From: Lunularia cruciata
Lineage: Eukaryota > Streptophyta > Marchantiopsida > Lunulariales > Lunulariaceae
Reading direction: 5' to 3'
DNA length: 64,000 bases
NCBI GenBank assembly: GCA_948567375.1
Contig: OX419758.1
Location: 62,339,965 to 62,403,964 of the forward strand
Position 1 is the first letter of the stretch. The number at the start of each line of letters is the position of its first letter. The notes under the pieces are model-generated. The model had not been told where the DNA came from, did no database searches, and saw nothing but the letters and a program-made list of their open reading frames with translations. Below, piece by piece: positions 1,825-60,394 of the stretch. Position numbers and translations under genes: made by a program.

Positions 1825-1958
1825 TGTATGTTATGTGGCTCTTCTGGTTGAGCTGCTACTATGGTGGTGTTTGATAGCTATTTTATAGTATGGAATATAG
1901 CATGTTTGACCCTCTCCTCATATTGATTCCTCAAGGACTATAGTTATGTCCTAGATGT
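1825..1958 (+). pseudogene. Decayed PHD finger of gypsy copy 1
   Basis: The first Cys pair (CMLC) is intact and followed by GSSG, then a stop and ATMVVFDSY. The second Cys pair and the His-Cys pair are largely lost, and a one-base deletion relative to copy 2 shifts the frame. At nucleotide level the final pair (TGT CCT AGA TGT, i.e. CPRC) is still readable at 1947-1958. The alignment with 50648-50782 shows that the finger is part of the family and not a private acquisition of one insertion. Confidence 0.75.
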
Positions 1959-37566: not shown

Positions 37567-40256
37567 CTAACAATCAGAAAAATAATCATCATGTTCATCT
37601 TCTTCCAAGTCCTCCTCTTCTTCTTCTTCCGGGTTCCCCACAATGTCTAGAAAGTTCGGTCCTGATGCAGCACCTGATTTGAGAAACACGTTCCGCAGCT
37701 CCTCCTTCGCTCGTTGGATGGCACTCAGCGTATTGTCACCAAAGTCCAAGGCATCTTTGGAATGCAAGTAAACATTGCTCTTCTTGGCACCTCTCTGGTT
37801 CCCTGTAGTTCTAGGTCTTCTGGCATGTCTTTGGTGCAAGTGATCGATATATTTGTCCAGTTGCCCTGGATCTTTCACCTTCTTCAAAACTTCCGGGCTA
37901 CAGAGCTGGGTTTGAGAATCTGGCACCACTCTGACTTTGCCCAAGACTAGACCATTCATACTCCTGTTCTCCTTGTTAGGTGTGCGGATACCAGAAGAGA
38001 GGCCACTGATGACTATGTCGTCGAACCGCTTGGTTGGTGGTTTAGATCCGGGCATAGGAGCAGTGCAGGTCAGAACTTTTGTGGCCTTAAATATCACGGC
38101 TTCATCAGCTTCTTTACGGTCTAGTACACTCTCCACCACATCTGCACGCTCTAATGCAACAAAAGCATCGGCTTCGTACTCTTCGTCGTCCACCTGCTGC
38201 TTTCTCAAAATGTTGCGAATCGTTCTGTGAGCTTCTATAAGCCTTTGCTTGGGCCCTAGAAGTTTCCCCTTTTTGACATTCGGAAGAGCATCAGGTTCTC
38301 CCAAGGTGTTCCCGTATTCACGTTTAGGACGCTGTGCTGCAGGCGGGGTAGGGTGTCCTGAATAGAACTTGTTGAAGCACTCTCCAGCTGTTCGCCCCGG
38401 AACCTGGAACAGACATAAACACTTCTGGTAAGACAAATCCGCCACTGTTGAGTATGACCATGGTTCAGAGAGAAACCGATGACACGGAGCTACCCAATTG
38501 TAAAGGTACATGATAAGAGCTCCTGCCCTTAACAACTATGAAAGCTAATCTGTTAATGCAAAAGTGTAGTCAAAGCGATGAAGCTAGGTTTGATCAAACG
38601 ACGTGCCCAGCAGAAATCCAACATAAGAATAAATATCAAGAACACGAAATCTTCTGGCTTATTTGAATCTCGTATTATTTAGTTTGATGATCATACCTGC
38701 TTGGAAATGTGGTACCAGAAATCTGCTGCGGGTTTTATCGATACATAAGCATCTTGGAGAGCCATTTCCTGCTCTGGTGTCCAATCATTCGCGGGTGCAA
38801 CAGTCACTGTCGAAGGGCTCTCAGAATCATCCTCAGCTTCAGAACTTTGCTGTTCAAGTCCAGAAACTTTCATCTGAATCTTTCTGCTAAACCGGCCTTG
38901 TCTCTCCTGCTCCAGAAGTCCATATCTCTTAACATGATCTTCTATATCGCTCTTCACTCTTCGGACGAGTGCCGATTCCTTTACCTTCGGAAGAGCGTCC
39001 TGATTTGCAACTCTTGGAAGCTTTGTCGCCTTCTTCAGTGACGTCACGTTCTGTTTCGAAGTTCTCGTCAGTTGATTGATCCCTTTCCTCATTTTATCCT
39101 TCAAATCACTCCCATCTCCTTTAGAAGCCAAACCAAACGTATCCAGCTCTTGTATCAGAGTCTCTGCAATCAAACTTGTCCGACTTCTCGTACTCCTGGA
39201 AGACCCATTGCTTTGGTTCTGCTCCCCTTTCAAACCTGTCTCAGCAACAGAAACATCCACGGACTTCCGAGCCTGTTCCTCCCTGAGCCTTGCTTCCACC
39301 ACTGCATTCATAGCACTGCGAACAAACCCTGTTGCCTCCTCAGCTATCCTCAACGCATTGGTTGTGCCCTTACTCGTAGTAACTCGAGCCATATTATCTA
39401 CCACCAGACCTTTCTGTCCTTTCCCATCCGCTGCAGCAACATCAGAATTCTGTTCCACTGCAGGAAGACAATTACTCCGCTGCCTCGGAGCATCAGCACT
39501 TCGTTTAGATGGCTCCCGAAGCTCTTGCAGACCAGTCTCTTGCAGCAACGTCTTTTTAGACCTGGCGACATTCATAATAGCTGTTGAGGGTTTCTTTGCA
39601 GCAGCAGCAGAACCAGCTCCTCTCTTCGATGCGTTCTTAGACTCCTTCACTTTCTTCTGTACGCCTTTCCGCTGTGTGAAAGTGCTTCTCTTTAAAGCGA
39701 TTCCTGCTGCTCGAGGACTTACACGGACGCCTTTTCCACCTCTTGACTTACTAGCCTCGACCACACCTTGTCCTTCCTGCAATGATTTTGAACATTCATC
39801 GTCCAATCCACATGCTTCTTCTGTAATTTTAGCCAGGTGTGGCAGAAATCTGTTCCGAATTCTCGTAGAGATTCTTCTCGGTATAGAACCCCCCACAGCA
39901 GCTCCTGTCTCCCTACTTCGCTTCCTGTTCTCGGTCCCCATGTGCTTCCCCTTGCCAACGCTAGGGGATCCGGTTGATCCTGAATAATTTTGCTTCGAAA
40001 TTGCAAGAGTTTTACTGCGAGTTCTTCTGATAGTACTCGACGGCTCTTTTGATGCCTTTCCATCCGGAACTTTTCCTTTCCGTTTCTTCCCCTGCTGGTT
40101 CTTCGCCATATTGGAACGTTTTACTTTCTGGCCATCTATTCTGCTGACTGCTGCACCTAAAAGTTGACGTCTCACGCGCTTGACTACCAAGGTTTCCTCT
40201 GCAATGCTCGGTGTCAGTTTCCTACCTCGAGACACATTCACAATTACCGCACTCAT
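37567..40256 (-). CDS. SANT/Myb-like domain nuclear protein, 798 aa, two exons
   Basis: Exon 1 is 40256-38697 (520 codons) and exon 2 is 38403-37567 (278 codons plus stop). The 293-nt intron has GT-AG ends and splits the SANT helix region at SKQ|VPGRTAGECF. The SANT domain (about 489-535) has DWTPEQEMALQDAYVS, DFWYHISK and ECFNKFYSGHPTPP. The long N-terminal region is Lys/Arg/Ser-rich with many basic clusters, expected for a nuclear, DNA- or chromatin-associated protein. The C-terminus has YIDHLHQRHARR, a conserved-looking SAIQRAKEELRNVFLKSG and an acidic tail with runs of Glu/Asp ending in DDYFSDC. I do not recognise a named gene; function beyond chromatin or DNA binding is unknown. Confidence 0.88.
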
Positions 40257-42314
40257 TTCCCTCTATAGTGTTCATGCTTCTACGTTTATCGATGTCCTTG
40301 CCAACTTCTCCATCGCCAGAAGAGAAATCTATACAACTGTAACGACGCTATGCAGTAGAAAATTCAATAACTGTAAAGCTAATTTTAATCGACATTGCCC
40401 TAAGAGATTTATTTGGGCCAGAAAATGTTGCACTCTGTCTGGCACTGAAAACCTCCCGTTAATTGCATCCCAAGCCAGAAGTTGAAAAATGCTGCCATAA
40501 ACATCGTCTCTGAAAAACTCTGAATCACAATTTCTAATTCTCTGTGTCTATACACCACTCTAAGAACCGTCAACCACCACAAAGAAATCAGATCACTGGG
40601 AATTTGAGCATGTTTTTTCAGCAAAATTCGCTCAAGGAATGCTTGATTTCAAGTGATGAGCTTCCAATTTTGAATCCTGTGCTCGAACCTCTTCTTCGTG
40701 CGCGCGCATCTTCTCTCCTTGCTTGATCACACTCTCTTTCCTCTTCTCTTTCTCCTGTGCAGAAACCCGGATTCTGTTCGTCTTGTTTGTCTGTACAGAT
40801 CCACGATAACTTGGACAAGCGGGTCGCCTGTCTGCTCCAGCCCGTTCCCGGTCACATGACCGTTGTTTTCACTGGACGCGTACGGATCCACGTGGCAGAA
40901 ATGAAGCTAACCGCACTCCTAGGTTAGCCGCACCCGAAGTTGGCGGAAAGACTTACCGAACCCGTTGTAACTTGAATAGTCAAGTTAGTACTAATTGACA
41001 TTAAAATGCACTAAAGTTATAAGGAGGCGACCGCGTGGGAAAAACGAAGGACGTGAAGACCACTTCAAGCCAAGCCTAACAAGGGAGAGACAAAAAAAGG
41101 TAAAATGAGGCTAAGCCCCCATAGAGTCTATACGAGAAATCTGCCCTCCCGCAACTCAGATATACCGGCTATGCAAGTAGTATAATCTATATGCAATTGA
41201 AGCATCACCTAATGTGATTACTTTCCTATGGATTGCAAGCGTCACTGTCCTTTGTAGAATAATGGATATATGTTATCTAAAATATGCTAAAAAGTATGAA
41301 AGTGAGAATGATACCCCATGCGTCTAACATGATAAGCTCTCGTCCACTCCCTGACAAATGTATTAAACGCCGTGTACATCGCTCCATATAACTAAAATGA
41401 GACTTTGTTTTTAACAACATCAATTGTAATTGTAATTGAGAGCACCAAAATCATCATCATAGGCCAAGTTTGCAGAAAACCATACGGTTGTTCAAAGTCA
41501 TCATTGACCAACCTTCTTGTCGCTTTATTTGTCAAGTTAATCCTAACTGCCATAAAATTCACGGATATTCGGGCTTTATTCTTTTATGCTCTTTGTAATG
41601 TTACATCAAAGGAACAAAATCATCATAGAACATCACAATTTATCGTTGTTTATAGTGGTGAGTGTAATCTTGTGAAGGTGGATCTGAATTTGCAAAATAC
41701 GCTTTGTTCCGCAATTAGTGTGGAACTTTATTAGTGTGTATACATATTTAGCGTGGACCCAAATGGAACTCGAGAAGAAATTAGGGCTCAAATCAGGGTT
41801 TTGATTACTTAGAGAATATGATTTATTTATATTATAAATATGGGATGTCTTTTACTATACATTATTCAAAAGCCAAAATTTTTATGACAATCTAAACATT
41901 ATTTATCATCATGGTCTGTCTGTCCTCTAAGCTTATGCTGTAATTGAAACAATTAGCAATGAGAAATGAGAGTATATTGAGATTGAAGTACCCATGGGAT
42001 GACGAGGGAATTTAAAGTGAGAGAAACTTTATTCCAAAGGTAAAAAGGTAGTGTTCAGTATTACTACCAAGGGTGAAGAAATCAATTGAGTGATTGAATA
42101 AGGGAGTCAGCCTTGAGAACTAAATTGAAATGGTGGTAAAAGGAATTAAACTCACTTTTTTCTCTCCACCAGACTATGCTATCTAAACTCCTTATGTTAC
42201 TAAATAATGTTTTAGTAACTTAAATTTGTACGAAAACAGTAGAGATCCATACTAAACATGCCAACGTTTTGGTAAGTGTAATTTAGTGTGTTTCTTAATT
42301 AACCTATTTTATTA
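40257..42314. other. SANT-gene 5' flank, then AT-rich DNA with an LTR-free repeat copy
   Basis: The promoter and 5' UTR of the SANT gene should lie in 40257-40900. The stretch 41190-41410 is related to the two halves flanking the solo LTR at 19445-19977 and is uninterrupted here. No gene is recognised; the open frame at 41405-41734 has no known motif. Confidence 0.45.
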
Positions 42315-46200: not shown

Positions 46201-46563
46201 TTCTTGACATAATTATTGTTGTGCATATATATGTTGTGTAGATTGTTGTGCAAATATACATTGCTACAAAAAATACATCTTGTAAACATCATACAATATA
46301 GAAGCAAAACTCATATAAAAGTCATACATGAATTCTAAAGTGTCACAATAATTAGTTCAATCATACACTCAACTTAGGTCAGAAACTCATCTATCAACTC
46401 AAGAAACTATCATCAACCGGCTCTGATTACACAATCAAGCTACACCTACTCTAGCTAAGAGACTCTAGGTGATACTTGCCTGCCTCTATCCACCATAGCT
46501 AAAATCTTGAAGGCTCAACATTAGAGAAGTGCGTTCTTTGGAGCGGCACTTCAAAAGAATATA
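46200..46563 (-). repeat. Inverted partial LTR of the PHD-gypsy family
   Basis: The reverse complement contains TTTTGAAGTGCCGCTCC, AATGTTGAGCCTTCAAG, TAGCTAGAGTAGGTGTAGC and then TATTGTGACACTTTAG with its following ~105 bases, i.e. the second half and terminal repeat of the LTR. It abuts the plus-oriented LTR at 46575 head to head. Confidence 0.7.
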
Positions 46564-49500
46564 TCACGCCACTTGTAGTGTCACATCTAGATTGCTCGGA
46601 CACTAGAGTTGCAATGATAGTAGTTAGAGGTATTTCAACAGTTTCCCATAGACTACTTTTTGATGATCAGATTTTGTGTTTGGGGTACTCACTTCATAAT
46701 GGGGCCCACCATCACTTTGCACCGTTTGCACCGTCAATGGGACCGTTAGGGTTTCAAACCTAACTCAAGTCCAAGGGTGTACTTTTGAAGTGCAGCTCCA
46801 AAGAGTCACTTTTTTGATGTTGAGCTTTCAAGTTCTTGGCTATGCTGGACAGAGGCCGGCAAGCGTCACTTGGATTCTCTTAGCTAGAGTGGGTGTGGCT
46901 TGATTGTAATAAGTGCCCAATTGTTGGCAGTTTATAGAGTGACAGATCAAGTATTGATCTGAGTTGAATTGATTTGAGAGTGGTAAACAATCTGATGACA
47001 TCAAAGAAGTGAAGTTAGGGGGAAATTGGGTGCAAGAATTGAGAGTGTTGGTGGTATCTCCAAGACTCACTGATTGTTGGTAGCTCGATTGGAGCTCATG
47101 TTTTCCCTTGTATGCAAAAGCTCATTCAATTGATGCAAATTTGGTAGTGAGATAGATGGTATGCGGAAGAACTGGCCAAATTTCAAACAAAGAGAAGCAA
47201 TTTTTGAGCAATGGTTATGATTTTGAGCTCAAGAGGTGAAAATAAGACCAATTTGTTGCGAGTTGGGCTAAGAAAGTGAAATTGAAGGTAGAGTTGAGAA
47301 CCCATCCTTGTAAATTTGTGATTTGGAGAGATATTTTTTTTTCAATTTGGCTTGAGTGAAGAGTTAGTGGAGAATTTGGCAGTCAGCCAACTTTAGGATT
47401 TATGGCAGATTTTACATCAGGATTTTGCTAGAGTTTACGTCAGATTTTGGCCAGATTTGGAGGAGTTTCACCATGGTGGGAGTTTGGCTACTGGGGAGAG
47501 TGGTCTGTTTGGAGTTCATCTAGGTGAGCGTGGGCTACTTGGATTACACCCTTGGTCCACTTGGGATGCAGCTAGAGGACGTGTGGAGCTTGCAGCGAGA
47601 GTGGAGTGAGTTTTTCACACAGAGATTGAGACCTCTAGTGGTTGGGAGCATGACATTATTGCTCCAAAGGGCCCAATGTAGCAGCCAATCAATATGTCAT
47701 CCACTCCTACTATAGTTATAGAGGATACTTGGGAACTAGATCTTGGAGCCAAGCGTATTGGAGAGGAAAGACGGAGAGTTTGGAGGTTCTTGAGGAGCTA
47801 CACGGGTTGTTTTGCTTTTAGTATGAAGGATTTGGGTGCTCTAAAGGGACCTAATATTTGGATTGAGCTGACTAGCGATACACCGGTTTTCTAATTCCCT
47901 TATCAATATAGTGATATAGAGAGGACATTGATTCAGAGCCGGAGTAGTGACCTTTTTGAGGCTGGTTTGGTGGAGATTTCACATGGAGAGTATGCATCAA
48001 TGACAGTGATGCCAACCAAGAAAGATATGCATGGCAACTACATAGATAGGCAGATGTGTGGAGATTATTGTCCTATCAACCGACAGACTAGGGTTGATTG
48101 GTATGCCATGCCTACACCAAAGGAGATCTTTGATACAATTGGGCATGCAAAGGTCTTTAGTACTTTCAATCTTTGAGCAAAATATCATCAATTGCCAATC
48201 AAAGAGGAGGACAAGTCCAAGACAACATTTTGGGCTATTGATCCTCACGGTAGGGATGTTATATATCAATGGAAGTTCTTACCGTTTGGGTTAAAGAATG
48301 CTCCTGCCAAGTTCTAGAGGGTCATGGATAGGATCTAGCTAGATTGGATTTTGCTCGGTGCTATATTGATGACATTTTGGTCTATAGCACTATTGTGGAG
48401 GAGCATGAGAGACAATTGTTGGAGGTGTTTGAGAGGTTGAGATCTCATGGACTCAAATTACATCCTAGGAAATGTAGGTTCTTCCATGAGCAGGTTGAGT
48501 ATTTGGGTCACACTACCTAGAGGACTTGGTGTTCAGCACACCAAGGTGGAGGCTATTGCACGTATTCCTTGGCCTACAGATGTGAGCAAAGTGTGAGCAT
48601 TCCTTGGATTGGTGAACTTTTATTAACATTATGTTAGAGGATTTAGTGCCATTGCCAAGGCCTTGATGCTATTGACCAAGCTTACACATGAGTGGTGTTG
48701 GGGAGATGAGAAGGAGAGTTTTTTTGTAGAGCTCAAGGAGAGATTGACATCTATTCCTATTTTGAGGAGACCAATCAGAGGACGACCATTTCAGGTTCAT
48801 ATTGATTGGAGTATGTTGGGGCTTGGAGTAGTGCTCACCCAACATGATGATGAGGCAATGGAGTTTATGGTGGCCTATGCTAGTCACTCCAACAATTCAG
48901 CGGAGGTGAAGTATAGTTCATATGAGGGAGAGTGCTTGGTAGCAATTTGGGCAGTAGCACATTTCCAATGTTACATATTTTTTAACCTCTTCACTCTCAT
49001 CACTGATCGTCAACCATTGAAGTGGTTGATGGAGTCCGACAAGCTTTCAATGAAGCTTGCACAATGTGCTCTGATTTTACAGGAGTATGTTTTCATGGTT
49101 GTTCACAGACCTAGAGTGGTGAACCATGATGCAAATAGGTTGAGTAGAAACCCATGTCCCAGCTAGCAGGATCAGATCGAAGCATGTTAGCATGGTGAGA
49201 CAGATGAGGAGATGGTGCCAGGTTGGCATGCATCGGCCTTTTTGTGTATATTTTCTAAGGCTTTGGTGGTATCTCTCTTAGTGCATACAGGAGGAGTTAT
49301 TGAGATCATAGATCCAGAGAGTGAAGATATTGGTACAGTCCAACAAGACATTCATGATGATGTCTTAGTGATGGTTATCTTTGCACTAGTGTTGTGGGTG
49401 GCACAATTGGAGCCAAGGAGAGAGATCGTGTCCTTAAGTGAGCCAGGCGATTCAGATTGGAGGGCATACACCTTTTGCATGTATGGGAGGATGGTAGAGT

Positions 49501-50647
49501 GTGAGTAATACCACTTCTATCTTAGAGACCACAGTTGGTCTATCATGCTCATGAGAGCTAGGACATTTTGGAGTAAAGCATACATATAGCTTACTCTAGA
49601 GTCATTATTGGTGGCACGGTATGCAAACTAAGGTACAATAGTTTGTTGCAAGATGTGTGGTTTGTGACCGAGTTAGAGCATCATTCAATGCTCCTACCCA
49701 ACAATTACACCCATTAACTATCATGGGATTGGGTTATTGTTGGAGTTTGGACTTTGTTGGACCTTTACCGTTGACTGTGAGACATCATTGGTATGTTTTT
49801 GTGATGGTGGAGCAATTCTCCAAGTGGATTAAGTTGGTGGTACTTCTTGAAAAGTCCAATGAAGGGGCGGCTTACTTGTTCCTAGACTGGGTTCTTAGTC
49901 ATTATGGTGCACCAACTGAGGTTTTGACTGATCAAGGTACAAAGTTCTTAGTGGAGTTTTAGGTCTTGTGTAACAAGGCTTTGATTGAATCATCATACTA
50001 CCTCGCGAGATCACCCTAAAGCATATGGCTTAGCAGAGAGAGTGGTTCAGACGGTGAAGAGAGGATTGCAAAAGTATTGTTTGCAAACAAGCCACTTAGG
50101 AGATTAGGATCTCCAGTTACCTTGGTTAGCCATGGGCTATCGGTTCAGCCGACAAGCCTTTTTAGCATCCTTCTCTCCTTACTTTCTACTATATGGATGA
50201 GATCCAGATTAACTTGCAGCCATTTGTCGAGATGCTACTATAGTTTTGGACTTGAATGATCCAAATGTATGGATGAGTGCATGTTCTTAGTGAGCAGAGA
50301 TCTTTTGGAGAATGATGCCGATGGCCTTTGAGAACTTAGCAATTGCTCAACATAGAGATACCTTACGCTATCTTACCATTCAAGGAGGAGGTTATTGACC
50401 TTCAATCCATCACTTTCATCTAGGAGATTATGTATATCTATAGCAAACAACACTGATGACACTTGATGTTTTGATAGGCCACACTATCTTGAGAGTGTGC
50501 AAGGTTTTGCCATTTGGAGCCCTTGTGTTAGAAGGACGTGATGGTGTTGTTTGTAAGGATCATGTGCGCAATTGTGCACCATGCCACCTCCCAAACATTG
50601 ATGGTACTATGGACCTAAGCTTGACACTTGTACGTGCATGCTTGAGG

Positions 50648-50782
50648 TGTATGTTATGTGGCTCTTTTGGTGGAGTTGCTACTATGTTAGTGTGTGATAG
50701 TTGTTTGAGAGGATGACATATGGCCTGTATAACTCCTCCCCTCACAGAGGTTCCTTAGGGACAGTCGTTATGTCCTAGATGT
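50648..50782 (+). pseudogene. PHD finger of gypsy copy 2 (C4HC3 complete, two Trp-to-stop changes)
   Basis: In one frame the sequence gives Cys-x2-Cys-x11-Cys-x2-Cys-x4-His-x2-Cys-x14-Cys-x2-Cys over 45 codons, with CMLCGSFGG, ATMLVCDSCLRG, HMACITPPLTEVP and CPRC. This is the canonical PHD spacing, including the hydrophobic TPPL segment. Stop codons occupy the position before His (usually Trp or Tyr) and the position after EVP (tag, probably once TGG or GAG). PHD fingers usually read histone H3 tail state, so a targeting role in integration is inferred. Confidence 0.88.
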
Positions 50783-50957
50783 ACTTGACCTATAGCTAGT
50801 TCATTCTTTATATGGTATAGATTGTAAATAGGCGACTAATGATGTGGCTCCATAGCACCCGACCTTTTGATCATTGCCTATCATAGGGTATACCATATAC
50901 TTGGAGTAGATGGCTATCGAGAGTTAGAGGGACCTAACCGCCAGCTAGGGAGGCAAT

Positions 50958-51609
50958 TGTGGCACTTTAGGGTTTATGTATGACTTACGTATGAGTTGTG
51001 CTTTTATAGTGTATGATGTTGACAATGATGTATGTTGTGTAGCAATGTATATATGCATGACAATTATCATACCATTTTTAGTGTTGCATCTAGATTGCTC
51101 GAACACTAGAGTTACAATGATAGTAGTTAGTGGTATTTCAACAATTTTCCATAGACTACTTAATGACAGTCAGATTTTTTGTTTGGGGTATTGACTTTAT
51201 GGTGGGGCCCACTGTCACTTTGCACCATTCACACCATCAGCGAGACTGTTAGGGTTTCAGACCTAGCTCAAGTCCAAGTGTATACTTTTGAAGTGCAGCT
51301 CTAGAGAGCTCACTTCTCTAAAGTTGAGCCTTTGAGTTCTTGGCTATGGTGGATAGAAGCCGGTGAGTGTCACCTAGATTCTCTTAGCTAGAGTGGGTGT
51401 GGCTTGATTGTATAAGTGCCTAGTTTTTGGCAATTTATAGAGTGAAAGATCAAGTAATGATCTGAGTTGAGTTGATTTGAGAGGGGTAAACAATCTGATT
51501 ATTGTGGCACTTTAGAGTATATGTATGACTTATATGTGAGTTGTGCTTCTATAGTGTATGATGTTTACAACAACGAATGTTGTGTAGTGATGTATATACG
51601 TATGACATA
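50958..51609 (+). repeat. 3' LTR of PHD-gypsy copy 2
   Basis: It begins TGTGGCACTTTAGGG after the purine tract CTAGGGAGGCAAT. The first ~105 bases recur from 51503, as in copy 1. Shared blocks with the 5' LTR at 46575-46993 include CATCTAGATTGCTCG, GGTATTTCAACA and GTGGGTGTGGCTTGATTGT. Confidence 0.8.
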
Positions 51610-52107
51610 TACCTCTCTAGCTCAACTTGAAACTCCATACCTAATGGTGCCATTGATGGCCTATTTGATGGTACAAATGATATAACTAATAGTAACCCCA
51701 ATGGTGGGATCAATAGCCCTAATACAAAATTTGGCAGTCACTACGTAGTCTCTAAGCAACTATGAGTATAACTTTGATTGCCAAGACCAACACTCCCACA
51801 TCAAAGCAAATAGCTTTAGTCCAACAATTATCATGCATATATGCATCACTACACAACATACATCATTGTCAACATTATACATTATAGCAACATAACTCTT
51901 ACAAAAGTCATACATGAATTCTAAATTGTCACAATTACCTCCTACTCAATGGTTAGGTCCCTTTAACTCCAAATAGCTAGCTACTCCAAGTATGTGATAT
52001 GCCCAATTGTGTGCAAAGATCAAGATATTATGTGCTATTGAGCCCCATTGTTACTTGCCTATCTATAATCTATATCACATAAATAGTGAACTAGCTATAT
52101 GTCAAGT

Positions 52108-52241
52108 ACATCAAAGACATAGCCACTGCCCTTAAGGAACCACCGTGAGGAGAGGAGTCAAAAATATCATATGCCATACTCTCAAATAGCTATCGCACAA
52201 AACATAGTAGTAGCTCTGCTAAAAGAACCACATGACATACA
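52108..52241 (-). pseudogene. Decayed PHD finger of gypsy copy 3
   Basis: The minus strand opens CMSCGSF at 52241 and shows the remains of ATTMFC, a His-containing segment and the final TGT...TGT pair at 52119-52108. Several Cys codons and the frame are lost. It confirms that all three copies carried the finger. Confidence 0.65.
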
Positions 52242-52435
52242 TTGCAAGCTTGCATGTACAACAACCAAGAATAGGTCCATAATGCCATCAATGTTTGGGA
52301 GATGGTATAGCACTTAATTGCGCACATAATCCTTCCATACAACACCATCAAGTTCCTTCTAACATGAGGACTTTGGAAGACAAAACCTTATGCACTCTCA
52401 AGATAGTAAGGCTTGTAATCACATCAAGTGTTGTT

Positions 52436-52786
52436 TGTAAAAGACCCAGACCGAGGAGAGAAATAGGAGAATGGAAACTCACATTGGGACACTGAATGTG
52501 GGAAACTTTGAATGCCTAGCATGAGCTTTGGCTTTGGTATTTATAGTTAGCATACAAGGCCCTTGAGAAGCTTCTCAAGGAGCTTCCTTCTAGAAGCCGC
52601 TTACTTGGCGTGCAAGCTAAGCTAGTTGGAAGCTTCTAGAAGCTACTTACTTGAGGTGCAAGCTAAGCTAGCCGGGAAGCTTGCCAAGAAGCTTCCTAGA
52701 TACTTCCAAAATATTCTAGGCTAATTTGTCTTATTTGCTACTTCGTAAGCACAACTAACTTTATTGCTAAAATCCATATTGTTACA
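52436..52786 (-). repeat. 3' LTR of the chromovirus (351 bp)
   Basis: On the plus strand it runs TGTAAAAGACCC to CATATTGTTACA. It matches the LTR at 57587-57968 closely but is 31 bp shorter, mainly through indels in the GCAAGCTAAGCTAG-rich middle. Confidence 0.95.
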
Positions 52787-52799
52787 TATTCCCCTGCCG

Positions 52800-52995
52800 C
52801 TAGTTGGTGACGTCCTCATTGCTAGTGATGCTTTGAATTCCTGGATGGCCATCTATGCATTCTGGAGGTGAGAAAGTGGTTCCCATGTGGCATCATGAAG
52901 GGGATACCCTTTCCAAAGAACCTTGTACTCTGTATGTTGGCAACGGTCTCGTTGAATATGGCAACACGCAAGGATACAATCAACTTTGTACTCCT
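52800..52995 (-). pseudogene. Chromodomain at the end of chromovirus integrase
   Basis: Minus-strand reading gives DCILACCHIQ, EYKVLWKGYPLHDATWEP and LSHLQNA, then a stop and MAIQEFKASL, and ends at a TAG at 52802-52800. The VxWKGYxxxxATWEP core is diagnostic of retroelement chromodomains, which guide integration to methylated-histone chromatin. One Trp-to-stop change follows HLQNA. Confidence 0.9.
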
Positions 52996-53200
52996 CATGA
53001 TCATTGCCAGGGACAAGAGGAGGGGGAGGTTGGACTCAAGAGGGAAAGGAAGAGGGGTTAGGAACAAAGGGTTTCAACTTGGAAACATGAAAGACAAGAT
53101 AGATACGCATGTGACAAGGCAAGGCAAGTCGATAAGCAACAAGAGAGACAATTTGGGTGATATCAAAAGGTCCTATCCAATTAGGGGTAAGTTTACAAAC

Positions 53201-54327
53201 TTAGGTATCAAGTGGGAGAGAGTGGTTACTAGAGGATAACATGACTTTATCACCGACTGCAAAGGTGAGATCACAACAATGGTGGTCTGCATATTGTTTT
53301 TGGCAATTTTGAGCAACAAGGAGGTGAGACTTGGCTTGTTGGAGAGATTGAGATATAATGGTCAAGAATGTGGAAGTATGAGGAACTTGAGATGGAGGGG
53401 GAGCAAGAAGAGAATCTGGAACAAGCGGATCTTGGCCAAAATTGGGAAAGAAAGGAGAAAATCTGGTGCTTGCTTGTTTGGAATTGTTGTAGGCAAATTC
53501 TACAGCTGCAAGACATTCATCCCAATTGGTATGGTGGACGTTGACAAAGGCACGCAACATATCCTCCAATGTACAATTTGCACGTTTGGTTTGTCTATCA
53601 GTTTGAGGATTATAGGCCATGGAAAAAGCAAGCTTGGTGCCGAGTATCTGGAAGAGTGCTTGCCAAACTTCTTGGTAAATCAAGGATCACGGTCAGAGAT
53701 GAGTACACATGGCATCCCATGATGCTTGAAGACATTGTTGAAGTAGTTTTGCACTAAGGTTGGAGCATCCACGATATAACAGGTTGGTGCCAAGTGGATT
53801 TGCTTACTAAGCTTATCCACAAACACCACGATTGCGGTGTGTCCTTGTTTTGTCTTTGGTAAGGATGTGATGAGATCCAAGCTCACATGCTCCCAGCGAG
53901 CGGATGGAACAACAAGTGGTTGAAGGAGTCCACTTGGCTTCTGGTTACTGGCCATGTTACGTTGGCAGCTCTCTCACAATTGGACAAATTCTCAAACATC
54001 TTGTGTCATGTTGGGCCACCACCATTGATGCTGGAGGGTACCCAAGGTCTTATCCACACCCATGTGACCAGCAATGGGTAAATCATGGGCTTCTTGAAGA
54101 TGCACAAGTCGGAGATCACCTTCAGTTGGAACATAGATCCGGTCCTCATGGAATAAGAGGTCCTCCTTGATGGAGAAGGTGTTATACTCCTTATCACATA
54201 CCGTAAGGTGACCATGTACCATTTGGAAGAAGAGATCTTGGTGTAGAGCTGATTGAAACTCATTTTGGACCTTGGAGTCAATTGACACCGGTGAAATTGC
54301 CATTGTGATGAAAGGAAGAGACTTCAA
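53201..54327 (-). pseudogene. Chromovirus integrase
   Basis: The N-terminal HHCC zinc region (HDLPIAGHMGVDKTL...SCQRNM) is at about 54140-53970, with one Cys position replaced by a stop. The core has LDLITSLP and VLISDRDP. At the third catalytic position, DRQTKRANCTLED has Lys where the DDE motif has Glu. FAVGDKVMLSS follows near 53250. Three frames are needed to read it. Confidence 0.88.
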
Positions 54328-54560
54328 ATCAGGTCGTCGTGATAAAGCATCGGGGATGACATGGAACCAACCTGGTTTGTACTCAAGTTTGTGTCATATA
54401 GTTGGAGTTATTCTTACCATCGATGATGTTGACTCTTCATGTGTTCCAAGTGTAAGGTCTGCAACAATGGTTTGTGATCAGTTTGCATGATCACTTGTTT
54501 CCCCAAGAGGTAATGCCTCCATACCTTGGTGGCGTATACCATTGCAAGTTGTTCTCGATC

Positions 54561-55328
54561 TCAAGCAGAATAGTTTTGTTTAGCCATATTGAGTCGAAGA
54601 GACACGAAGGCAATGGGATGGAGTCCATATGGGAATTCTTGTTGCACCACGGCTCCAATTGCAAAGTTAGAAGCATCAAAATCAACGACACAAGGTAGTT
54701 GAGGATCATATGGTTGAATAATGGGTCTTGAAGACACCATATGCTTTAACTTATGGAATGCTTCTTCATGCTTGGTGGTCCACATGAAGCTCAAGTTCTT
54801 TCCCAAGAGGTCAGTCAATGGTGCAGTCACATGAGCATAATAATGGATGAACCGTCGGTAAAAATTGGCCAAGCCATTGAATGCCCGTACTTCTGTAGCA
54901 TCCTTTGGGGTAGGCCAATTAGTAATGGCCTTGATCTTCTCTTCTTCCATCTTGATCTCCTCTGATGAGATCTTATGACCCAAGAAGGTAACCTCCTTCT
55001 GCCAAAAGGCACACTTTGACTTCTTATAGTAAAATTTCCATTGTCGTAGTCGCGTAAGGACTTCTTGCACATGATTCATATGTTCTACCTCTATCTTGCT
55101 ATAGATTAAGATATCATCCAAGAACACCACCACGGACTGAGACAATAATCTCTCCAACACTTGATGCATTTGATCCATGAAGATTGTTGGAGCATTAGTG
55201 AGTCCAAAAGGTAGAACTCTCCACTCAAAATGCCCATACCTTGTGCAAAAGGTAGTCTTTTTCATGTCCTCTCCTTCAATAGGGATTTGCCAATAGCCGC
55301 TGCAAAGATCCAGCTTGGAAAGTAGCAT
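54561..55328 (-). CDS. Chromovirus reverse transcriptase and start of RNase H (open 255 codons)
   Basis: Conserved blocks in order are [64 protein letters not shown] and the RNase H start [15 protein letters not shown]. The catalytic DD pair is intact. It is the longest open stretch of the element, but a stop after NMAKQNYSA cuts it off from the rest of RNase H. Confidence 0.93.
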
Positions 55329-55486
55329 GCTCCACTTAGTTGATCAAGCATGTCATTGATCCGAGGCAAGGGATATGCATTCTTCAAGCTTTGCTTATTC
55401 AGCCCATGGTAATCAATACAGAAACGAAGTCCTCCATCCTTCTTTGGAGCAAATAGTACCGGTGCTCCCGAAGGAGAGGTACTATG

Positions 55487-56320
55487 TCATATGAAATCCT
55501 TCTCCAACAACTCTGTAAGTGTTATTGGCAACTCCTCCAACTCCTTTGGTGAGAGTCGATAGATTGGTCTACACACTAGAGTACTCCCTGGCAATAACTC
55601 GATCTTGAAGGGTATGCCTTGATCGGAGGGTAATCCCTTTGGCAGATCATACAGAAACATATCCCCAAACTCTTGAACTATCCAATCAACCATTGCTTGA
55701 TGAGGCTCTTGTCCCTCTACAGATTGTTCTTGTGCAATCGGCTTGATCCACATTGCAAATACAGACTTATCTTCCTCCAAAGCTTGCTCTATGGCTTCTT
55801 TATTAACAAACTTCCCTTCCAAGGACTCATCTCTCTTCCAAGCTTGCTCCATGGTTACCTTCCTGGTAAACTTCCCATCTTGGGACTCATCTCCCTTCCA
55901 GATTTGCTCTATGGCGACCTTCTTGACAAACTTCCCATCTTGGGACTGACTATTCTTAGGTGTCTTCCTCAGAAGTACCAGACAACCTAATCGGAACTTC
56001 CCCTCTTGGTGTTGTATTTGAATTTGTCGTCGGGTCCAATTGAATTGAACCTTATGATGTTCAAGCCAAGGTAGACCCGAAATGATATCATAGTGTAGAG
56101 GTGCCACTACAAACCTCATACATTCCAAATACTCCTTCACAATCTTGAAGGTAACATGATGTGAGGTGCGGAATGCAGAACCCTTTCTACCATCCGCTAT
56201 CATCAAACTACTTCCAAACACTGGCTTGATAGGAATACCCAATTCCTTTGCTACATGCATAGACATGCAATTCTCTAAACTTCAAGAATCAACCAAAATC
56301 CTACAACCCCAATTAGTTAT
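55487..56320 (-). pseudogene. Chromovirus protease and linker
   Basis: The aspartic protease begins RILVDS followed by a stop where Gly is expected, then SLENC and HVAKELGIPIKP; IISGLPWLEHHKVQFNW closes it. A Lys/Glu-rich linker carries three diverged copies of a ~23-residue repeat (SQDGKFVKKVAIEQIWKGDE type). The stretch ends with FKIELLPGSTLVCRPIYRL, the usual approach to reverse transcriptase. Confidence 0.85.
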
Positions 56321-56399
56321 TGTACCTTGCAAGTGAAGCAAAATTGCATAGGTTGAGCTTTCTATCCCATTGGAACTAATCCAGCTCCTAGTAGGCGGC

Positions 56400-57315
56400 T
56401 CAAAATCTCCTAATGGGATTTTTCGTTTCCCTAATCATTCTATTCCACAAACTCTATTTGGGCAACTTGTCAAGGTCGCCTATTCCTAAGTGGACATTCA
56501 GCAATGCAATGTCCAACTTGGCAACAATAAAAGCAACCTCTATTTTGTCGCAATATTTCTCTATCCGTTGTACTAAGTGGTCTCCGTTGAATAACATCAA
56601 TCTCCATTGGTACCGATTCTTCCACTCGTGCGTAGTGTGCTGGTAGGCTTTGTGTAGGTCAAGGTCAAGACCAAGTTGTCGCAACCAAGGAATCAAAATG
56701 CTCAGCCAATTGCATGGCTTCTTCTATGTTTTGTGGCTCTTGCATGGTCACCTCCAATTTGGTTTGTGACTTCAATCCTTGCAAAAATTGATCCATAACT
56801 TCACCTTCTTGGATATCTAGAATTTGCATGATGATGTTCTAAAATTGTGTGATGTAGCTCCTTATTGAGCCAATTTGCTTCAACTCTACCAATTTATCTT
56901 GTGCGGCTTGGGTGACATTTATGGTTTGAAATCAACCAAGTATTGCACTCTTGAATTCTACCCATGTCAAAATCGGTGCAACAATCTGTCGTTCAGCTTG
57001 TTCTACTTGGAATTGCTACCAAAGTTTTACCACACCATCCAATTGGCTAGAAGCCAAGAGAATTTGTTTCCTCTCGTCTTGAAGATTGGTGGCTTCAAAG
57101 TAACATTTGCAATCAAACACAAAATTCTCCACCGTGCTCGGAAGATTCTTGCCTTCAAACACCTTGGGTTTTGGAAATTGAATGTGATCTTCTCCATCTT
57201 GAACTGGCGCTCTCTCTATCTGTTCTTGTTGTTGTTGGTCTCGTTCATCCAAAAATTGAGTAAGATGCTCGATTTGTTGTTGCATTGCAAGGATAACATC
57301 CAATATTGCCACCAT
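56400..57315 (-). pseudogene. Chromovirus gag with CCHC zinc knuckle
   Basis: It starts with MVAILDVILAMQQQIEHLTQ at 57315 and includes FEGKNLPSTVENFVFD. The zinc knuckle CFYCCQVGHCIAEC (Cys-x2-Cys-x4-His-x4-Cys) lies near 56540. Several stops break the frame. Confidence 0.88.
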
Positions 57316-57570
57316 TGCTACTACTCTATTCCACTACCTTCAATTTATCTAATTGATTAACACATAGATACAACACATCCACCGTTCTCCATAAGTTACA
57401 ATTGGAAGTATCAAGGGTTCCTCAAACACTATGATCATATGTAGAAAATCTTGCCCAAAGCGCAAGGTGATGAATTGTGTAAAATGATGCTTTGGTAATA
57501 TCTGGACATGAAAATCCCAATGGTTTGGCGGAAGTGGATTTGGTGGTCCATAAATTCCATCCATCCCATT

Positions 57571-57585
57571 CCTACTCTGATACCA
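57571..57585 (-). other. Chromovirus primer-binding site
   Basis: The minus strand reads TGGTATCAGAGTAGG one base inside the 5' LTR, matching the 3' end of initiator-Met tRNA as used by most plant LTR retrotransposons. Confidence 0.9.
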
Positions 57586-57586
57586 A

Positions 57587-57968
57587 TGTAAAAGATCCAG
57601 ACCAAGGAGAGAAATAGGAGAATGGAAACTCACATTGGGACATTGAATGTGGGAAACTCCGAATGCCTAGCATGAGCTTTGGCTTTGGTATTTACAAGTA
57701 GCATACAAGGCCATTGAGAAGCTTCTCAAGAAGCTTCCTCAAGCCGCTTTCTTAGAGTGCAAGCCATGTTAACTAGAAGCCGCCTACTTGGCGTGCAAGC
57801 TAAGCTAGTTGGAAGCTCATAGAAGCTACTTACTTGAGGTGCAAGCTATGCTAGCCGGGAAGCTTGCCAATAGCTTCTTAGATACTTCCAGAATATTCTA
57901 GGCTAATTTGTCTTATTTGCTACTTTGTAAGCCCGACTAACTTTGTTGCTAAACTCCATATTGTTACA
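57587..57968 (-). repeat. 5' LTR of the chromovirus (382 bp)
   Basis: On the plus strand it runs TGTAAAAGATCC to CATATTGTTACA and is followed by the TTGTT duplication. It differs from the other LTR by substitutions and by extra GCAAGC-rich sequence. Confidence 0.95.
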
Positions 57969-59047
57969 TTGTTGGTGTAATCTGCTATAGATAAACATAG
58001 TCAAATATAAATGAAATTGAAGGATTGAATGTCTATAACCTCCTCCTCAAATAGTGGCATATCGTAATATATTCCTATGCTAAGCAATTGCTAAGTTCTC
58101 AAAGGCCATTGATATCACTTTCCAAAAGATCTCTACCCATTGAAAAAATATGCTCATCCATACATCTAGGTCATCCAAGTCCAACACTATAGTAATATTG
58201 CAAAAAATAGCTATACATAAATTTGAACCTATCCATAGAGTAGAAAGTAAGGAGAGAAGGATGCTAAAGAGGCTTGCCGGATAAGTTGATAGCCCATGGC
58301 CAACCAAGATAATTGGAGATCCCAATCTCCCATGTGATCTCTTTGCAAACCATACTTATGCAATCTTCTTTTCATGATCTAAATGATTATTTTTAATAAG
58401 CCATTTGCCTCAAGATGATCTCAAGAGGTAGTACAATGATCAATCAAGACCTTGTGATACAAGGCCTAAAACTCTCCCAAGAGCTCTATATTGATCAATC
58501 AAGACCTTAGTTGGTGCATCAAAATGACTAATGACCAAAGTGGTACTTCTTGGATTGGTGAACCCAATCCAAGAAAAAGTAAGCTGTCCCTTCATTGGAC
58601 TTATCAAGAAGTACCACTAACTCAATCCACTTGGAGAAGTGGTCCACCATAGCCAAAATCTATCAATGATATCTCACATCAATGTCAATGGTAAAGGTCC
58701 AACAAAGTCTAAACTTTGGTAGTAATCCAACCTCATGATTGATAATAGGTGTAATTATGTCATAAGAGCATCAAATGATGCTCTAAATTGGTCACAAACC
58801 ACACATTTGGCAACAAACTAATGTACATTGGTTTGGATATAACACCACTAAAAATACTTCTAGAGTAAGCTATATGTTTGCTTTACTCTAAAATGTCCTA
58901 GCTTGTCATGATCATATTGTACCAACTATGGTCTATATGATGAAAGGGGTACTAATCTCACCCTACTATCTTCCCATACCCAAAGAAGATGTTTGCACTC
59001 CAATCTAAACTGCTTGGCTTGTTGAAGGGCATAATTTCTCTCCTTGC

Positions 59048-60394
59048 ACAAGAAAAAAGCATGGATTACAATGAGGTCTACTCTCTAGTTGTTAAGTATG
59101 CCACTATTTGCTTATTATGCGTACTTGTGACTTTCTTTGGCCTTATCTTAGATCAAACAGATGTTGTCACTACTTTCCTCTATAAAAATTTAGATGTGGT
59201 GATCTTCATGAGATAGCCTATGGGCTTTGTGAAGAAGAGCCAAGAGGATATGGTTTGTAGGTCGCTAAAATCCTTGTATGGATTGAAGCAAGCCCCTAGA
59301 CAATGGAACAAGCTGTTCAATGATTTCATGAGGTCACAAGGATTTAAACAAAGTGTGTTTGATCCTTGTGTATATATGAAAAAGGTGAGTAATGAAGTCT
59401 TTGGCTTCACTATTTTAGTATTGTATGTGAATGACATGCTTATTGAAGCTAGGAATAGATCTGATGTTGATAAGCTCAAAGCTCTCTTGAGGTTTGAGTT
59501 TAAAATGAAAGATCTTGGTACAACGAGGATTTTGGAGATGGAGATCCAAAAAAACTTGGAGGATGCAAAGCTATGGTTAAATCTAGGGAATTATGCTAGA
59601 AAGGTACTTGTAAGATTTAACATGGAGAATTGCAAGGCTATGAGTACTTCTTTAGCTCCTCACTTCAAGCTTTCATTAGCTCTTTGTCCAACAAATGCCG
59701 TGGAGAAAGGTTTGATGTCCAAGGTCCCTATGCCATGGTAGTGAGAAGTCTCATGTTTTTGATGATTCGCACTAGGCTTGACATTGCTCTAAATATAGGC
59801 AAGACTAGCAGATACATGTCAAACCTAGGGAGGATACATTGAGAAGCTATGAAGTGGATCCTTAGATATCTCAAGGGTGAGTTGGATTTTGGCCTTGTGT
59901 TTGATGCTAAATCATACAATGCCAAATCACTTATTGGCTATGTAGATGTTGACTATGGACAAGATCTGGATGGGAGGAAATCTACAACTGGTTATGTGTT
60001 CATACTTGGAGGTGGATGCATAAGTTGGAGATCTACATTGCAGAAATATGGTGCTCAGTCTACTGCAAAATTTGGGAATGTAGTGGCAGCGGAAGCAACG
60101 AAGGAAGAAATTTGGTTGGACAAGCTTGTCTTAGAGATGGGATTGACACATGACATTTTGAATCTTCATTGTGATAGCCAAAATGATTTACATCTAGTTA
60201 TAAATCAGATGATGGACAATAGAATGAAGCACACCAACATCAAATATCATTTTCTCAAACAAAATGACAAAATGATTGAGCTAGTCAAAATTGACACTAA
60301 ACTCAATCCTACTAATGCTTTTACCAAAGTGTTTTATTTGAGAAATCATGCAAACTTGCAGGTGTTTGATATAGGCACAAGCAGAGTACACTAG
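59048..60394 (+). mobile_element. Ty1/copia pol fragment, 5'-truncated
   Basis: Plus-strand reverse transcriptase shows MDYNEVYSLVVKYATI, SLKSLYGLKQAPRQW and VLYVNDMLIEA; the YVDD box has become YVND. RNase H follows in another frame: KWILRYLKGELDFGLV, GRKSTTGYVF, ISWRSTLQKYGAQST, CDSQNDLHL, KHTNIKYHFL and NAFTKV. A stop at 59214-59216 and a frameshift near 59630-59740 disable it. Gag, protease and integrase are missing; the left edge meets gypsy copy 3 sequence at about 59048. Confidence 0.92.

Follow-up and report, generated by a model that had tools for sequence, protein, structure and literature searches.

The closest known kind of element to the one reported here is KnitGypsy-Dnmt3 of Klebsormidium nitens, which is described as combining a gypsy pol with Dnmt3 and with repeats in DIRS order (PMC5890265, figure legends). 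The acquisition of Dnmt3 was proposed to be independent and to have taken place in the K. nitens lineage (PMC5890265), and a 2025 survey of DNA methyltransferases (DNMTs) records that some DNMT3 members reside in retrotransposons (PMC12344493). Here we describe a Ty3/gypsy-type retroelement of Lunularia cruciata from a 64,000-nucleotide (nt) stretch of contig OX419758.1 (positions 62,339,965 to 62,403,964, forward strand; assembly GCA_948567375.1). This stretch, referred to as the window, contains copies 1, 2 and 3 of the element, and these were compared with open copies in the genome (566 Mb, 74 contigs). What is new is a conserved PHD finger at the end of the integrase, together with insertion ends whose sequence points to circle-based integration by a DDE integrase.

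By its published description, KnitGypsy-Dnmt3 resembles the Lunularia element in joining a DNMT3-type methyltransferase to a gypsy pol and, as judged against the figure legend, in carrying DIRS-order repeats with gypsy domains (PMC5890265); the present element widens the green-plant range of this kind. It differs in that the main text of PMC5890265 does not contain the term "PHD", whereas a finger is present here, and in that Dnmt3 is placed within the pol open reading frame (ORF) there and upstream of a UAG codon here. In addition, that description places the acquisition in K. nitens, whereas related DNMTs were found here also in Marchantia, Sphagnum, Closterium and the polyproteins of an algal group. 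SymbioDIRS-Dnmt3, a DIRS-order retroelement, shares Dnmt3 and an A-coding-B-A-B arrangement of repeat segments but uses a tyrosine recombinase (PMC5890265), in place of which the Lunularia element has an integrase core (PF00665) and 4-bp target duplications.

Plant chromoviruses, like this element, carry a domain of chromatin-reader type at the C-terminal end of integrase (PMC6317226), but theirs is a chromodomain, whereas the Lunularia element has a PHD finger, split repeats and a DNMT. A preliminary description of the window knew of no plant Ty3/gypsy lineage with such a layout; consistent with this, "PHD" does not occur in the text of the reference classification of plant long terminal repeat (LTR) elements, which reports no non-chromoviruses from algae (PMC6317226). 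A literature search likewise found no paper on a PHD-bearing gypsy lineage, most subscription papers being outside its reach. REM1 of Chlamydomonas is another unusual Ty3/gypsy element, from a green alga, and is ruled out as the same element by what its published description reports (PMC2774666). Finally, foamy-virus integrase opens the palindromic joint of 2-LTR circles in vitro, leaving a 2-nt 5' overhang with the loss of 2 nt (PMC1180852), a scheme that the joint described below would match; the foamy-virus palindrome is formed by two LTR ends, whereas that of the Lunularia element is internal to its repeat unit.

A PHD finger at the end of pol

The PHD finger is genuine and a feature of the family. 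In copy 2 the translation of positions 50648-50785 reads CMLCGSFGGVATMLVCDSCLRG, stop, HMACITPPLTEVP, stop, GQSLCPRCT; all eight C4HC3 zinc ligands are present, in agreement with the motif first reported, and the two in-frame stops mean that this copy is dead at that point. In an open pol frame of 1037 residues, Pfam recognizes RVT_1, RT_RNaseH, Integrase_H2C2, rve and PHD, the last (PF00628) at residues 992-1036 with 44.3 bits against a cut-off of 24. A chance match is ruled out by this score and the conserved ligands. The order reverse transcriptase (RT), RNase H, integrase, with gypsy-type domains, is that of Ty3/gypsy elements, and this one frame has no match to Chromo, the domain that marks chromoviruses.

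The finger of copy 2 is 92% identical in DNA to that of the open copy. The figure is 84% for copy 1 and 82% for copy 3, with one 1-base gap each; both fingers lie at the same place in the element, bearing out the decayed fingers claimed there. In 17 younger copies bounded by target duplications and read at both ends, the finger lies inside the element, which rules out a position outside it or an origin in an adjoining gene. A genome search with the PHD profile yielded 5913 first-look candidates, including any ordinary host PHD genes; all 150 that were scored matched, many in long open frames.

Split repeats and a palindromic joint

The 3' end consists of a segment A (107 nt), a 2-nt spacer, a segment B (~450 nt) and a second A, whereas the 5' end has B alone. 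The insertion form is thus B-body-A-GC-B-A, and what had been called a 3' LTR is a split repeat; with A-B-A at one end and B at the other, these are not ordinary LTRs, and the identical direct LTRs expected at both ends of a Ty3/gypsy element are absent. Ends were studied in 26 copies with PHD matches, most of them picked for long frames. The 3' A-B-A was present in 23 of the 26, including L018 with a shortened B. Six copies were not counted for target duplications, as the 5' B was absent from the fetched piece. Of the 20 with both the 5' B and the A end located, 17 have an exact 4-bp duplication and none has an A in front of the 5' B; where both ends of the B-body-A-GC-B-A form were readable, the duplication was exact in 17 of 17. 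Of the other three, c15.9, whose 5' piece had been cut off, proved to be B-body-A with the target duplication GGTT once its upstream piece was added; c36.6 has differing flanks; and L010 yielded neither a terminal B end nor a terminal A. A short target duplication of fixed length is expected of a DDE integrase in a Ty3/gypsy element; DIRS elements, to our knowledge, make none.

Insertions start with TGTC and finish with GACA, and the internal A-GC-B joint, GACAGCTGTC, contains GACA-GC-TGTC, a perfect 10-bp palindrome; the insertion ends are therefore the palindrome halves minus GC. The spacer was GC in 22 of 29 distinct joints (AC in 3, AT in 2, GT in 2). The extended joint has 671 exact copies in the genome, and its reversed control none. 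The B.A joint is nearly constant among copies (L003, L011 and L018 differ), and when the two B segments of a copy were compared (16 of 18 copies given; A in 12 of those 16), both carried common copy-specific variants at 14 columns. In L018 the second B, shortened to ~115 nt, abuts the start of A exactly, resembling joined DNA ends.

Copy 2 and its surroundings

Copy 2 is a decayed copy spanning positions 46562-51607, a correction of the earlier bounds of 46575-51609. Alignment to the open copy reveals a deletion of ~4.8 kb in the 5' half of its coding region, between 47469 and 47487; in open copies this interval holds gag, a protease-like motif and the methyltransferase. The 4 nt flanking copy 2 are AATA (5') and TATA (3'), agreeing at three of four positions. 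Its features, and the fingers of copies 1 and 3, are as follows.

46562-46996, plus strand: 5' repeat, B segment alone with no A on either side; repeats 51065-51499 and aligns with the 5' B of open copies
46997-47469, plus strand: leader, the 5' untranslated part of the body; 80% match to the open-copy 5' region, ending at 47469
47470-47486, plus strand: deletion joint, seen as a jump in the open-copy alignment; ~4.8 kb gone (gag, protease-like motif, DNMT3-type methyltransferase)
47487-47677, plus strand: tail end of ORF1, by alignment to the open copy
47678-47680, plus strand: UAG stop dividing ORF1 from pol, followed by CAG CCA; same TAG CAG CCA in 10 of 10 copies
47933-48535, plus strand: RT, decayed; approximate limits transferred from the open pol
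48627-49166, plus strand: RNase H, open stretch of 179 residues (PF17917, 1.4e-25; PF17919, 3.5e-25)
49520-50020, plus strand: integrase zinc-binding part and catalytic core, decayed; approximate, from the open copy
50258-50630, plus strand: integrase C-terminal part and linker, decayed; approximate, from the open copy and strands in a modelled relative
50648-50782, plus strand: PHD finger, C4HC3, with two in-frame stops; read from the letters, PF00628 in the open copy
50947-50955, plus strand: purine-rich tract directly 5' of A, AGGGAGGCA in copy 2 and AGGGGGGCG in most open copies
50956-51062, plus strand: 3' repeat, first A segment, by repeat comparison and open-copy alignment
51063-51064, plus strand: 2-nt spacer at the A-B joint, AT in copy 2 and GC in most copies
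51065-51500, plus strand: second B segment, by repeat comparison
51501-51607, plus strand: terminal A segment, by repeat comparison; 3' flank TATA
1825-1958, plus strand: decayed PHD finger of copy 1, in an element matched over 3-2772 with segments A, B and A at its 3' end too
52108-52241, minus strand: decayed PHD finger of copy 3, in element pieces 51824-52434 and 57981-59046 (minus strand) parted by a nested element

The nested element (52434-57981, minus strand), whose RT and RNase H lie at 54561-55343, is a second Ty3/gypsy element that splits copy 3. An inverted fragment of the B and A repeat of the PHD-bearing family (46243-46556, minus strand) is found immediately upstream of copy 2. 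The window also contains a Ty1/copia pol remnant (59217-60394, plus strand; RVT_2 at 59217-59741) and a likely host gene (37567-40262, minus strand) of at least two open stretches, with no Pfam match and a SANT-like segment seen by eye only. An Rfam scan of the whole window gave no match.

ORF1, a DNMT3-type methyltransferase and a UAG stop

Open copies have the order ORF1 (gag, protease-like motif, DNMT3-type methyltransferase), UAG, RT, RNase H, DDE integrase, PHD. The methyltransferase, the UAG codon and the split repeats had gone unnoticed in the preliminary description. The ORF1 frame is 1428 residues long in two open copies (1330 from the first Met) and 1025 in a third. Its match to gag is weak and under the cut-off (PF03732, 14.6 bits versus 24.1); the translation, read by eye, has what we take to be two zinc knuckles and a protease-like DSGA motif. 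The cytosine methyltransferase domain is recognized as PF00145 (1.4e-6; 28.5 bits, cut-off 22), and its best solved relatives are DNMT3A and DNMT3B (1.5e-9), a comparison in which motifs I, IV (PC), VI (ENV) and VIII are aligned. Among ten copies picked for long pol frames (L009-L018), the motif IV region was located in seven: six have an intact PCQG, and in L018 a stop replaces Q. The search pattern did not pick up L010, which has PCQG in its frame tail. A genome search with the methylase profile gave 2161 first-look candidates, of which 123 were scored and all matched, host enzymes included.

Copies with both frames open, L009 and L013 among them, have ORF1 and pol in one frame with a single TAG between the two. 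TAG CAG CCA stands at this border in all ten copies and in copy 2, and fits UAG-CAR-YYA, the leaky context of tobacco mosaic virus. From this context we infer that pol is made by UAG readthrough.

Relatives and age of the lineage

C4HC3 is retained in 119 of the best 120 public relatives (of 297). All 42 relatives that were scanned contain PHD, and Chromo is not among the 12 matching families listed for them; together with the open copy, they uphold the view that a PHD finger stands in place of a chromodomain after a Ty3/gypsy pol. Named sources of finger-bearing proteins are Marchantia polymorpha (82% identical), K. nitens, Haematococcus lacustris and Volvox reticuliferus; one further protein bears the label Chrzof1 and probably comes from Chromochloris. 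Marchantia is the nearest named relative, which by itself would point to a liverwort host. The solved fingers nearest to that of the element are those of CHD4, KMT2D, PHF12, KDM5 and DPF3. None of 119 relatives has a Trp two residues before the His, the position of the H3K4me3-cage Trp in fingers such as ING2; by this rule, H3K4me3 reading is not predicted. Past the PHD, 72 of 119 relatives, P0068 and P0089 among them, run on for more than 100 residues, and P0068 has there a weak match to D12 adenine methyltransferase (E 0.0027, under cut-off).

A midpoint-rooted tree of the integrase tail and PHD (57 of 121 proteins, 113 of which had the needed anchors) separates Volvox, Haematococcus and Chromochloris from Klebsormidium, Marchantia and this genome with support of 100/99, the PHD-bearing K. 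nitens pol P0058 grouping with the streptophyte rows. Since the finger is common to both groups, it is probably ancestral in green plants, and a recent swap of a chromodomain for a PHD is not supported; horizontal transfer is a possible alternative source of the spread over both groups. Marchantia proteins, and one Sphagnum fallax protein that stops short of where the PHD would lie, combine a methyltransferase with a gypsy-type pol; in Closterium, one protein joins gag to a methyltransferase and has no pol. In the algal group of the tree, represented by the environmental polyprotein P0119 with PHD, the methyltransferase lies between RNase H and integrase. The simplest reading of these sequences is that PHD and DNMT may both have been present early in green plants. 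A DNMT search from the relative P0015, aimed at the published Klebsormidium element, returned only P0015 and three environmental proteins among the 7991 candidates with most words in common, which were those scored, and viral contigs scanned with pol gave no match.

Proposed integration route and its alternatives

We consider it fairly probable that the element represents a Ty3/gypsy-type green-plant lineage with its own chromatin tools, in which circle-based DDE integration would be combined with a PHD tether and DNMT action. Pol would be produced by reading through UAG, and the cDNA would circularize, joining A and B as GACA-GC-TGTC. By analogy with foamy-virus integrase in vitro, we infer that the DDE integrase may open circular cDNA at this palindrome: it would cleave each strand just past CA to give 5' overhangs of 2 nt, and the cut ends would be joined to target DNA with a 4-bp stagger, whereby GC would be removed. 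The arrangement of the repeats makes it probable that the element inserts from a DNA circle. The PHD finger on the integrase tail would bind some state of the histone H3 tail and so hold the complex at certain parts of chromatin, a plausible means of selecting integration sites, and the methyltransferase would methylate the new copy or its surroundings; H3 tethering and methylation of the new copy are the least certain steps. The full account, of an ancient lineage with a PHD reader and a DNMT3 writer, whose DDE cleavage of circular cDNA at a palindrome of its own repeats would give split-repeat insertions with target duplications, we hold at a little under even confidence.

Several observations weigh against this account. 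The circle, the readthrough product and histone binding are all proposed from sequence, and closeness to foamy-virus integrase may merely mirror which structures are solved; the structure search lists integrases and barely covers the PHD part. The spacer is not always GC: 100 listed genome matches comprise GC 72, AC 13, GT 8, AT 4, TC 2 and GA 1. The copy c36.6 has no final B-A and, its two flanks being different, no target duplication. The other circle isomer, B-A-GC-B-body-A, was not found in the genome with exact motifs, and all seven exact-motif A-NN-B-body joints are tandem, body-A-GC-B-body. If a symmetric circle with two repeats were opened at random, both isomers should arise, so the finding of one means that joint choice needs an extra rule; the tandem joints (L068-L074) suggest unequal recombination, or a circle recombined into a resident copy. 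A 9-nt insertion occurs in the 5' B alone of L009 (in both B of L013), and C/T or G/A variants are confined to the 3' B at columns 181 and, outside c49.9, 233, and to the 5' B at column 5; such one-sided variants are not explained by simple LTR-type copying. Finally, among six open copies, the nonsynonymous-to-synonymous ratio (pN/pS) of the PHD is 0.84, calculated from only 20 differences in all across 15 pairs, and RT and the integrase core give 0.21-0.23 (RT, 0.21), so recent within-genome selection on the finger is unsupported.

These same observations bear on the alternatives. The reading of A-B-A as an ordinary LTR element whose 5' LTR lost A, or as a product of subsequent rearrangement, in either case integrating by no special route, could draw on the other forms seen (c15.9, c36.6 and the seven tandem joints), but we give it very little credence: the 3' end has the same form in 23 of 26 copies, and target duplications fall exactly at the start of B and the end of A in 17 of 17 readable copies. 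A 5' end of the form flank-A-GC-B-body is absent from the seven exact A-NN-B-body joints, and this lack, with the duplication-bounded ends, rules out ordinary LTRs. A DIRS-like route is a possibility of real substance, although short of an even chance. In that route RNA would run from B to A, an A-GC-B splint would close the circle, the B.A joint would be copied and a DDE integrase would replace the tyrosine recombinase. The repeat order, which is that of DIRS elements and KnitGypsy-Dnmt3 in figure legends of PMC5890265, the near-constant B.A joint (with its three exceptions), the one-sided B variants and the single isomer all speak for it; it accords poorly with the variants common to both B segments and with the purine tract immediately before A, as in LTR-type cDNA synthesis, and a closed circle likewise predicts both isomers.

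The PHD could also serve the integrase tail in a structural or processing role and be no histone reader, with site choice residing elsewhere. The missing cage Trp, the low within-genome constraint and the long extensions beyond the finger favor such a role, whereas the nearest solved fingers belong to chromatin proteins, and both ligands and neighboring residues are kept in both green-plant groups; we regard it tentatively, as possible but not the expected outcome.

Implications

If the circle-based account with a PHD tether and DNMT action is true, an element able to read as well as write chromatin marks would offer a natural test case for site choice and for living with host silencing. The lineage is present in Marchantia, which is a tractable model among land plants. 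Because split repeats occur here together with DDE-type target duplications, the old and disputed idea that circular cDNA is the substrate of integration can be tested directly. Should the published KnitGypsy-Dnmt3 belong to this lineage, its spread over both green-plant groups would alter the picture of a Klebsormidium-specific acquisition of DNMT.

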